This document shows, in pieces, positions 1,981-17,860 of a stretch of 64,000 nucleotides of DNA. The notes under the pieces were generated by a model. That model ran no database searches, was not told where the DNA came from, and saw only the letters and a list, made by a program, of their open reading frames with translations. Position 1 is the first letter of the stretch, and every line of letters begins with the position of its first letter. The position numbers and the translations under genes were made by a program. The stretch is from Bacteroidota bacterium. Lineage in GTDB: Bacteria > Bacteroidota > Rhodothermia > Rhodothermales > UBA10348. Location: NCBI GenBank assembly GCA_027622005.1, contig JAQBZH010000002.1:5001-69000 (forward strand), in the 5' to 3' direction.

Positions 1981-2325
1981 ATGGCAGATAACGCAAAATA
2001 TGTAACGCTAACGGATGCCAACTTTGGCACCGAAGTTTTGAACTCGGAGCTCCCGGTACTCGTGGACTTTTGGGCGACCTGGTGCGGTCCTTGCCGGATT
2101 ATTGCACCGGTCATCGAAGAGCTCGCTTCTGAACTCGAAGGACAGGCCGTGATTGGAAAATTGGATGTAGATCATAATCCTCAGACGGCGATGAATTTTG
2201 GCATTCGATCCATTCCAACGCTGTTGTTTTTCAAAAACGGTGTAGTTGTGGATCAAATGGTCGGAGCAGCCCCCAAAAAGGTTTTGGCTGCTAAATTAGC
2301 CGCTCTTTCAGGACAGCCTGCTTAA
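1981..2325 (+). CDS. trxA: thioredoxin
   Basis: Small cytoplasmic dithiol carrier that reduces protein disulfides and supplies ribonucleotide reductase and methionine sulfoxide reductases. The 114-residue protein has the active site W-C-G-P-C at residues 34-38 and the conserved cis-proline segment RSIPTLLFF, both diagnostic of classical thioredoxin. I chose the ATG at 1981 because it gives the usual family length; an in-frame TTG at 1948 would add 11 non-conserved residues. trxB starts 8 bp after the stop, so the two form a complete thioredoxin/thioredoxin reductase pair, very likely cotranscribed. msrA and msrB further along the window are probable clients. Confidence 0.96.
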   Translation: MADNAKYVTLTDANFGTEVLNSELPVLVDFWATWCGPCRIIAPVIEELASELEGQAVIGKLDVDHNPQTAMNFGIRSIPTLLFFKNGVVVDQMVGAAPKKVLAAKLAALSGQPA

Positions 2326-2333
2326 TAAACCGT

Positions 2334-3287
2334 ATGCAAGGGATAGATTTCAAAGATGCTGAGCATCGAAAAGTGACGATCATTGGAACGGGCCCAGCCG
2401 GTCTAACCGCCGCGATATATTCGGCTCGAGCCAATTTATCGCCGCTGGTTATTCAGGGTCCGGAGCCTGGTGGTCAATTGATCACAACAACGGATGTTGA
2501 AAACTATCCTGGATTCCCCGACGGTATCATGGGACCCGATATGATGCAGAAGTTTGAAGCCCAAGCCGAAAGGTTTGGTGCTGAGCTTCGCTGGGGATCG
2601 GTCACGTCGGTCGACTTTACGGTTCGACCTTTTAGGATGATCGTGGATGAAGAAACTCCGATCGTGTCGGACACCGTGATTATCTCGACGGGAGCATCCG
2701 CTCGTTACTTGGGATTGGAAAATGAAGCCCGCCTACTCGGGCACGGCGTGTCAGCTTGTGCCACCTGCGACGGAGCCTTTTTCAGAGAACAAGAAGTGGC
2801 CATTGTGGGGGGTGGGGACACCGCCATGGAGGAGGCTCTGTTTTTAACCCGTTTTGCGTCCAAAGTATACGTTATTCATCGTCGGGGTGAATTTCGGGCT
2901 TCACAAATCATGCAGGATCGGGTATTAACACACGCCAAAATCGAAGTGATTTGGAATACGGAAGTGATTGATGTCTTGGGTGATAAACTCGTAAGCGCAG
3001 CCGTCCTTCGGAATACCGATGGCTCAAATGAAAGAACTCTACCCATTCAGGGATTTTTCGTAGCCATTGGCCATCGCCCAAACACCGATATATTCGCCGA
3101 TTTTCTGGATCGGGACGAAACGGGGTATATCATCACCAAGCCCGATTCTACCTATACTAATATCGAAGGCGTTTTCGCCTGCGGCGATGCACAAGATCAC
3201 GTATACCGACAGGCGATTACGGCCGCAGGAACGGGGTGTATGGCGGCCATTGACGCCGAACGATGGTTGGCAGATCAGGAAGCGTAG
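2334..3287 (+). CDS. trxB: thioredoxin-disulfide reductase
   Basis: NADPH- and FAD-dependent flavoenzyme that re-reduces TrxA. The 317-residue length is standard for the low-molecular-weight bacterial type. The FAD-binding GTGPAG lies at residues 18-23, the redox-active C-A-T-C at 142-145 and the NADPH-binding GGGDTA at 159-164. Near the C-terminus GVFACGDAQD is the second FAD motif. The order FAD half, NADPH domain with CxxC, FAD half matches the family. It lies 8 bp downstream of trxA in the same operon. Nothing is missing or unusual. Confidence 0.96.
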   Translation: MQGIDFKDAEHRKVTIIGTGPAGLTAAIYSARANLSPLVIQGPEPGGQLITTTDVENYPGFPDGIMGPDMMQKFEAQAERFGAELRWGSVTSVDFTVRPFRMIVDEETPIVSDTVIISTGASARYLGLENEARLLGHGVSACATCDGAFFREQEVAIVGGGDTAMEEALFLTRFASKVYVIHRRGEFRASQIMQDRVLTHAKIEVIWNTEVIDVLGDKLVSAAVLRNTDGSNERTLPIQGFFVAIGHRPNTDIFADFLDRDETGYIITKPDSTYTNIEGVFACGDAQDHVYRQAITAAGTGCMAAIDAERWLADQEA

Positions 3288-15443: not shown

Positions 15444-15791
15444 TTAGTCCGTTTCCCAAGTCAAAATATCCTGCTCAGATTTTTCTTTGGTAGCCCATGC
15501 TTCAGAGTCGGGCAAAGGATCCCCTTTTTCCGTAATGTTTTTGCCAAGAGCTTGCCACTGGTTAGCCAAATAGGTATTCCACTCCGCGTAATGCGCCATT
15601 TCTGCCGGAAGCTCGTCGTCAGCATAAATGGCTTCTACTGGGCATACCGGGACGCATGCATTGCAGTCAATGCATTCATCAGGATGAATTACGAGGAAGT
15701 TTGGACCTTCATAAAAGCAGTCCACAGGGCAGACTTCCACACAATCAGTGTGCTTGCAGTTAATACATGCTTCAGTTACAACGTATGGCAT
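15444..15791 (-). CDS. fdxA: 7Fe ferredoxin (FdxA type)
   Basis: Soluble low-potential electron carrier with one 3Fe-4S and one 4Fe-4S cluster. The cysteine pattern is C9, C12, C17, C21 (with C25), then C40-x2-C43-x2-C46-x3-C50-P. It follows the spacing of Azotobacter ferredoxin I, in which the C-x7-C-x3-C set with a distant Cys holds the 3Fe cluster. The 115-residue length includes a C-terminal extension with conserved [10 protein letters not shown], usual in this family. Redox partner not evident: no oxidoreductase gene is adjacent. It is transcribed away from the DUF2752-TM2 gene pair. Confidence 0.93.
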
Positions 15792-15958: not shown

Positions 15959-16261
15959 ATGAGCAGATTGCTAAATTTAAAGACTTTTCGAGGATCGCCT
16001 CGGTTTGAAGCGGGGATTTGGATAGCCGGATTGGTCGCGGTTTGTTTAGCCGATCCAACTCAAAAATCGGCGGTCGATTTGTGTCTTTTCAAGTTAATCG
16101 GATTTTTGGGCTGTCCTGGATGAGGCTTAGGACATGCGCTTGGCTTTTTGGCTCGCGGAGAATGGATATTGGCCATGAAGAGCCATTGGATGTCCCCGGC
16201 TGTCGCGATCATTCTAGTAACGCGAATTTATACCCTTGTTTTTAGAAAAGCCGTAGTTTAG
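15959..16261 (+). pseudogene. DUF2752 membrane protein with in-frame TGA at a conserved Cys
   Basis: Reading from ATG 15959, the frame encodes a small membrane protein with the DUF2752 pattern LCLFKLIGFLGCPG, then TGA at 16121-16123 (codon 55), then GLGHALGFLARGEW, and continues open for 45 more codons to TAG at 16259. In DUF2752 the motif is normally C-P-x-C-G-L, so TGA sits exactly where the second Cys belongs. TGA is one base from TGC and TGT, so a recent nonsense change or sequencing error is the simplest explanation; selenocysteine is the alternative. I see no convincing SECIS hairpin just after the TGA. The TM2 gene starts 34 bp downstream, a pairing I recall from other Bacteroidota genomes. 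Confidence 0.65.
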
Positions 16262-16295: not shown

Positions 16296-16667
16296 ATGTC
16301 TAAAATAATCAAGTATTTACCTGAGCTTCAGGGGGAAGAGCAGTTGTTAGTGGCACAAGTCATAACGACGATGACAGAAGAACAAGCTGAGCAGTTTGCC
16401 CATGTGTACCGTCAGCGCCGGAAGGACGACGTATCGGTTTTATTGTTAACGTTGACCGCATTTATTGGAATTGCGGGGGCCAATCGATTTTATCTGGGGC
16501 AAGTGGGGATGGGAGTGGCCTATCTCTTTACTTTTGGTTTTTGCCTGATCGGCACCATTGTGGACTTGTTCAATTATAAATCGTTGACTGCAGCATTCAA
16601 CGAACGACAAGCCCTCGAAGTGGATACCTTGATACGCGGGGCGTTTCCAGCATTACCGGCGGCATAA
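16296..16667 (+). CDS. TM2 domain protein
   Basis: A 123-residue inner-membrane protein. After a charged N-terminal helix (residues 1-45), the TM2 domain shows two hydrophobic segments with the signature GANRFYLGQ (61-69), GVAYLFTFGFCLIG and TIVDLF with the conserved Asp at 90. TM2 proteins have no established biochemical role in bacteria. It lies 34 bp after the interrupted DUF2752 gene and overlaps the next gene's start by one base (TAATG). The three are thus probably one transcript. Confidence 0.85.
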   Translation: MSKIIKYLPELQGEEQLLVAQVITTMTEEQAEQFAHVYRQRRKDDVSVLLLTLTAFIGIAGANRFYLGQVGMGVAYLFTFGFCLIGTIVDLFNYKSLTAAFNERQALEVDTLIRGAFPALPAA

Positions 16668-17860
16668 TGGGTGCTCGTGCTTTTCTGGGATTTATTTTAT
16701 TTTGGCTGATAGGCTTCGTGGGTGCCAGTTGCGCTGACGAGGCAACCAACCTGACTTCCGAAGACCTTTTGCGAGTAAAGCTTCCCGTTGGTTTTTCGAT
16801 ATCCGTTTACGCTTCCGGAATTTCTAACGCCCGGAGTCTTGCCCTCAGTCCTGGCGGTACTCTGTTCATTGGGACTCGTCAAAAAGATCATATTTATGCC
16901 GTTCGCGATCTAGACGATGACGGAATAGCCGATCAAGTCTTCCACATTGGGCGCAGCCTGGAAGTACCCAATGGCGTTGCTTTTAAAGACGGTGCGCTCT
17001 TCGTCGCGGAAGTCAGTCGCATTATCCGATATGACAATATCGAAGCCTTGTTGGACGAAGCAGTAAAAGTCACGGATGGTACCAAAAGTGCTGGAAATCT
17101 CACCCAGTTTGACCTTTCCGACATCGATTTTTCGGCAGTAGTTACTGATCAATTGCCAAGCGATCGTCACCATGGATGGAAATACATCGCGTTTAGCCCC
17201 GACGGGAAACTCTACGTGCCCATTGGAGCTCCATGCAATGTCTGTAATCGGGGAGATCCGTACGCGACCATTTCTCGGATGAACCCGGACGGATCGGATT
17301 TTGAAATCGTTGCCCGTGGAGTGCGTAATTCCGTTGGCTTCGACTGGCATCCGGAATCAGGCGACTTGTGGTTTTCTGATAACGGCCGGGACAATTTGGG
17401 AGATAACATCCCTCCGGACGAAATCAACCGGCTTCGAGGTCCGGAAGGCCATTTCGGATTTCCTTTTGTGCACGCCGGGACAATTTTAGACCCTGAATTT
17501 GGACAAGAGCAAACCCCCACAGATCTTCAAGCCCCGATGCACATGCTTGGAGCGCATGTTGCCCCGTTGGGGATGGAATTTTATAAGGGAGCGAGTTTTC
17601 CCGACGCGTATCGCGGTCAGCTATTTGTGACTGAACACGGCTCTTGGAATCGGTCTTCCATGGTGGGGTATCGAATCGCTACGTTAAGAGTCGATCCAGA
17701 TTCGTTGAGTCCCGTTTACTCTTCGTTTGCAGAAGGCTGGCTGACCGGAGAGTTGGCTTGGGGGAGGCCTGTGGATGTGGAGATGATGTTCGACGGTTCA
17801 CTCCTAGTCTCAGACGACCTTGCGGGTGTTATATATCGAATTGCCTACACAGGTCAATAA
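16667..17860 (+). CDS. PQQ-type soluble sugar dehydrogenase (sorbosone/glucose dehydrogenase family)
   Basis: A 397-residue beta-propeller of the GSDH/sorbosone dehydrogenase family, periplasmic judging by the N-terminal hydrophobic segment ending near VGASCADE. The Cys there gives only a poor lipobox. Family motifs are RHHGWKYIAFSPDGKLYV, GAPCNVCN, RGVRNSVGFDWHP, LWFSDNGRDNLGDNIPPDE and FVTEHGSWNRS. These supply the Ca2+ and PQQ site residues in characterised relatives. Known relatives oxidise aldoses or other polyols and pass electrons to the respiratory chain. The substrate here is unknown, and some members bind no PQQ. It overlaps the TM2 stop by one base. Confidence 0.82.
   Translation: MGARAFLGFILFWLIGFVGASCADEATNLTSEDLLRVKLPVGFSISVYASGISNARSLALSPGGTLFIGTRQKDHIYAVRDLDDDGIADQVFHIGRSLEVPNGVAFKDGALFVAEVSRIIRYDNIEALLDEAVKVTDGTKSAGNLTQFDLSDIDFSAVVTDQLPSDRHHGWKYIAFSPDGKLYVPIGAPCNVCNRGDPYATISRMNPDGSDFEIVARGVRNSVGFDWHPESGDLWFSDNGRDNLGDNIPPDEINRLRGPEGHFGFPFVHAGTILDPEFGQEQTPTDLQAPMHMLGAHVAPLGMEFYKGASFPDAYRGQLFVTEHGSWNRSSMVGYRIATLRVDPDSLSPVYSSFAEGWLTGELAWGRPVDVEMMFDGSLLVSDDLAGVIYRIAYTGQ

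Follow-up and report, generated by a model that had tools for sequence, protein, structure and literature searches.

A private in-frame TGA at a motif cysteine codon of a DUF2752 gene, probably a nonsense substitution in a dispensable gene

The in-frame TGA that interrupts a DUF2752 gene in this Bacteroidota genome is probably a lineage-specific nonsense substitution of a single base in a dispensable gene, and the stop is most likely an ordinary event. As the relatives show, the ancestral codon was a cysteine codon, TGC or TGT; the codon is now TGA and is read as a stop by the host, and translation is predicted to end after 54 residues, giving an N-terminal fragment that lacks the conserved C-terminal half of the protein. 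The mutation would be recent, the rest of the frame being undecayed, and since the gene is dispensable in the genus, its disruption is probably neutral or close to it. We infer that the population really carries this base, that the truncated product has no activity and that the loss is neutral. The original prediction had set out two readings of the TGA, as a selenocysteine (Sec) codon or as a nonsense mutation or error, and leaned towards the second; all of the tests run favour nonsense or error, and none favours selenocysteine.

The window, which is the whole 64,000-nucleotide stretch of DNA analysed, contains the following features around the TGA:

15444 to 15791, minus strand: ferredoxin gene (4Fe-4S), divergent, the conserved upstream neighbour
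15959 to 16261, plus strand: DUF2752 gene (PF10825) for a small membrane protein, interrupted by one TGA and otherwise open to 16258, with its normal stop at 16259-16261
16112 to 16138, plus strand: motif C-P-G-(TGA)-G-L-G-H-A
16121 to 16123, plus strand: in-frame TGA, at the second-Cys codon of CPGCGLGHA
16296 to 16667, plus strand: TM2-domain gene (PF05154), downstream and intact, 71-89% identical within the genus and adjoining DUF2752 in relatives
16667 to 17860, plus strand: glucose/sorbosone dehydrogenase-like gene (PF07995), the third gene of a block missing from two congeners

The translation of 15959-16261 reads MSRLL...GCPG*GLGHALGF...RKAVV*, and the single TGA at 16121-16123 means that the reading frame as a whole is not intact. 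With the TGA taken as a residue, the read-through frame scores 38.8 bits against Pfam DUF2752 (PF10825), for which the curated cut-off is 27 bits, and a whole-genome profile search recovers the locus at 31.1 bits with “1 TGA” inside. The translation and the Pfam match bear out the original claim that the frame from 15959 is intact on either side of the TGA, and its placement on the second cysteine codon of the family's CPxC motif also holds, since homologues have TGC or TGT there. Homologues from the same genus are 64-71% identical across the TGA site and align in a single frame without indels; in the three genomes that carry them (G001, G003 and G004) the DUF2752 gene lies in the same place and frame and has TGC or TGT at the codon. 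Because the homologues are collinear across the TGA and carry a cysteine codon there, the frame and the position of the TGA are real. That the stop falls on a cysteine codon is not surprising: if the ancestral codon is assumed to have been TGC or TGT, a single base change would turn 21 of the gene's 100 codons into TGA, and Cys is encoded by 4 of these, 2 of them in the motif.

A TGA on a Cys of a CPxC motif, in a frame that is intact on both sides, is nevertheless the pattern that would be produced by selenocysteine insertion at UGA, which would make DUF2752 a new selenoprotein family. This explanation is barely credible, because the decoding machinery it requires was not detected: searches of the host genome, which comprises 2.79 Mb in 96 contigs and is 97.5% complete, returned no SelA, SelB, SelD or tRNA-Sec. 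SelA had zero matches, and nothing scored above the curated cut-off for SelB in any of 27 genomes (the host and 26 relatives). The best SelB match of the host genome is EF-Tu, which scores 753-762 bits on the best EF-Tu models, and the best SelD match is thiamine-phosphate kinase, at 75 bits against a cut-off of 125, with the two remaining SelD matches at about 25 bits each. No host-genome match to tRNA-Sec reaches the gathering score of 47; the best, at 46.0 bits, is identified by ARAGORN as a tRNA-Ser with anticodon tga, and all 11 sub-threshold matches are likewise Ser, Leu, Tyr, Trp, Phe or Arg tRNAs. A 2006 survey did not detect the Sec-decoding trait in Bacteroidetes (PMC1794560).

The cis-acting signal for selenocysteine insertion was not found either. 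In published bacterial selenoproteins a stem-loop lies directly 3' of the UGA and carries a G in its small apical loop (PMC1088965). Over the 60 bases that start with the TGA, folding is no better than in shuffled sequences (z = +0.40), no hairpin after the TGA satisfies SECIS-like criteria for loop, G and distance (which were taken from general knowledge, except for the loop G), and an Rfam scan of the region gives no credible element. Since the same SECIS-like criteria are passed by 95 of 200 codon-shuffled versions, the hairpin test is not over-strict, and the earlier impression that no convincing SECIS hairpin follows the TGA is confirmed by the folding score, the hairpin criteria and the Rfam scan together. 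Because both the sel machinery and the SECIS element are missing, UGA is not readable as Sec here via the known route. Moreover, none of the other DUF2752 matches found in the class has a TGA at this codon.

The selenocysteine argument also depends on how strictly the second cysteine of the motif is conserved. Among 57 distinct genomes, each counted once, the residue at the TGA codon is Cys in 46, Asp in 6, Glu in 3 and His in 1, the remaining genome being the one with TGA, so that the TGA does align with Cys in most homologues, as it would in a selenoprotein family. The original claim of one specific conserved Cys accordingly stands in so far as most relatives have Cys there, but not in so far as Glu, Asp or His is found in 10 of the 57 genomes. 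Glu occupies the position in one genus of the family (G007, G015 and G022; L059, L060 and L070), His in G016 (L062) and Asp in a further genus, where six genomes have it (L016, L023, L024, L025, L027 and L028); the first Cys is retained in all of these. The substitutions indicate that the second position is tolerant and that Cys is not obligatory there, which weakens a selenocysteine argument built on a fixed redox cysteine, and that the DUF2752 CPGC motif does not conform to a strict CxxC redox pair. Across the 57 genomes the motif's first Cys is conserved in 56; in the exception, G013 (L063), it is Gly (GGT) and the second Cys is retained.

The distribution of the stop among relatives bears on whether the base itself is correct. 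A DUF2752 match is present in 139 of 245 genomes of the class, with 140 matches in all, and only the match described here contains an internal stop; in a phylum-wide sample, in which 203 of 395 genomes have a match, no internal stop occurs among the matches listed. With no other stop-bearing match in the class and none listed in the phylum sample, the TGA is private to this genome among the genomes searched. The comparison of homologues at this codon thus returned no second TGA, the other 139 class matches being free of stops. When a genome collection was searched for TGA within the CPG-GLGHA pattern, a single match emerged, from Arthrobacter, and it was attributed to chance since its frame is broken by stops. 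A search of a genome contig collection with the DUF2752 protein found no relatives, and no mention of DUF2752 was found in the literature searched.

A stop that is seen in one genome only, in a draft assembly of 96 contigs and with an undecayed downstream half, is also what would result from a sequencing or assembly error, or from a minority allele that has entered the draft consensus, in which case the organism's gene would be intact. This is the main rival explanation and carries an appreciable, though clearly minor, share of the probability. Against it, only one base is substituted, at a mid-contig position (G000:C3), with no indel or homopolymer error involved, the remaining conserved genes around the site are free of internal stops, and there is no stop in the sel-type matches listed for the host genome.

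The state of the frame after the TGA limits the age of a real mutation. The dN of this region against G003 is 0.154, while that of the intact gene of G001 against G003 is 0.137, and the post-TGA region therefore looks constrained, being about as conserved at the sequence level as in the relatives; the branch-wise counts, 8 non-synonymous and 4 synonymous changes in G000 after the TGA, involve too few changes and too much saturation for relaxed selection to be shown. A frame that is undecayed after its stop implies either that the TGA is recent or that it is a base error in one assembly. The lack of decay does not discriminate further, since it is equally expected from a recent mutation, from an assembly error and from expressed read-through.

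Read-through of the stop by a near-cognate tRNA at UGA-G would allow part of the protein to be made at full length, carrying a different residue there. The tolerance of the position, which takes Cys, Glu, Asp or His in relatives, and the undecayed downstream part are in keeping with such a process, but it is improbable, because no relative has a stop here, no sequence sign of programmed read-through is apparent and other ORFs in the window use TGA as a stop. A reassigned TGA code was considered and discarded, as TGA closes 8 of the 46 non-overlapping ORFs in the window that have 120 codons or more, and no internal TGA occurs in the other conserved genes near the site. That the TGA is in fact decoded as an amino acid, whether as Sec by unrecognised machinery or by efficient read-through, and that a full-length DUF2752 protein results, is thought very improbable.

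A nonsense substitution is the more readily accepted if the gene can be lost, and the neighbourhood of the gene provides evidence that it can. Relatives largely keep the gene order ferredoxin, DUF2752, TM2, dehydrogenase, secreted protein. In two species of the same genus, G002 (100% complete) and G005, neither DUF2752 nor TM2 was found; there about 200 bases separate the ferredoxin gene from the gene for the secreted protein, and the three-gene block between them is missing (L125, L123). The DUF2752-TM2-dehydrogenase block is thus missing in 2 of the 5 other species of the genus, and its absence as a unit from G005 and G002 suggests that the three genes were lost together. Because the whole block is missing in two congeners, the DUF2752 gene is, as judged from gene content, dispensable in the genus, and its break is tolerable. 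In G023, of the same family, the reading frame of DUF2752 changes immediately ahead of CPGC, which divides the gene (L073, about 2297-2538, minus strand), and TM2 too is matched in two pieces; this second broken copy may be genuine or may reflect an error of assembly.

The locus can be compared with three known systems. It resembles other point-mutation pseudogenes in having one stop, an undecayed remainder and a gene that is missing from some congeners, although here assembly error remains the main rival. It resembles other members of the DUF2752 family (PF10825) in that its read-through frame exceeds the curated cut-off and has TM2 as its neighbour, as it does in relatives, and it differs from them in its in-frame TGA, which was found in no other member in the class. 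Like bacterial selenoproteins with TGA/Cys pairs (e.g. PMC1088965), it has a TGA that aligns with the Cys of homologues in a C-x-x-C-like motif, but unlike them it has neither a SECIS element nor decoding machinery.

If it were true that this TGA is decoded without SelB, the result would be remarkable, but no evidence here points in that direction. As a stop in a dispensable gene, or as a base error, the TGA is of little importance in itself. The lesson to be drawn from it is that the sel genes, the SECIS element and the variability of the residue should be checked before a TGA at a motif cysteine is called selenocysteine.
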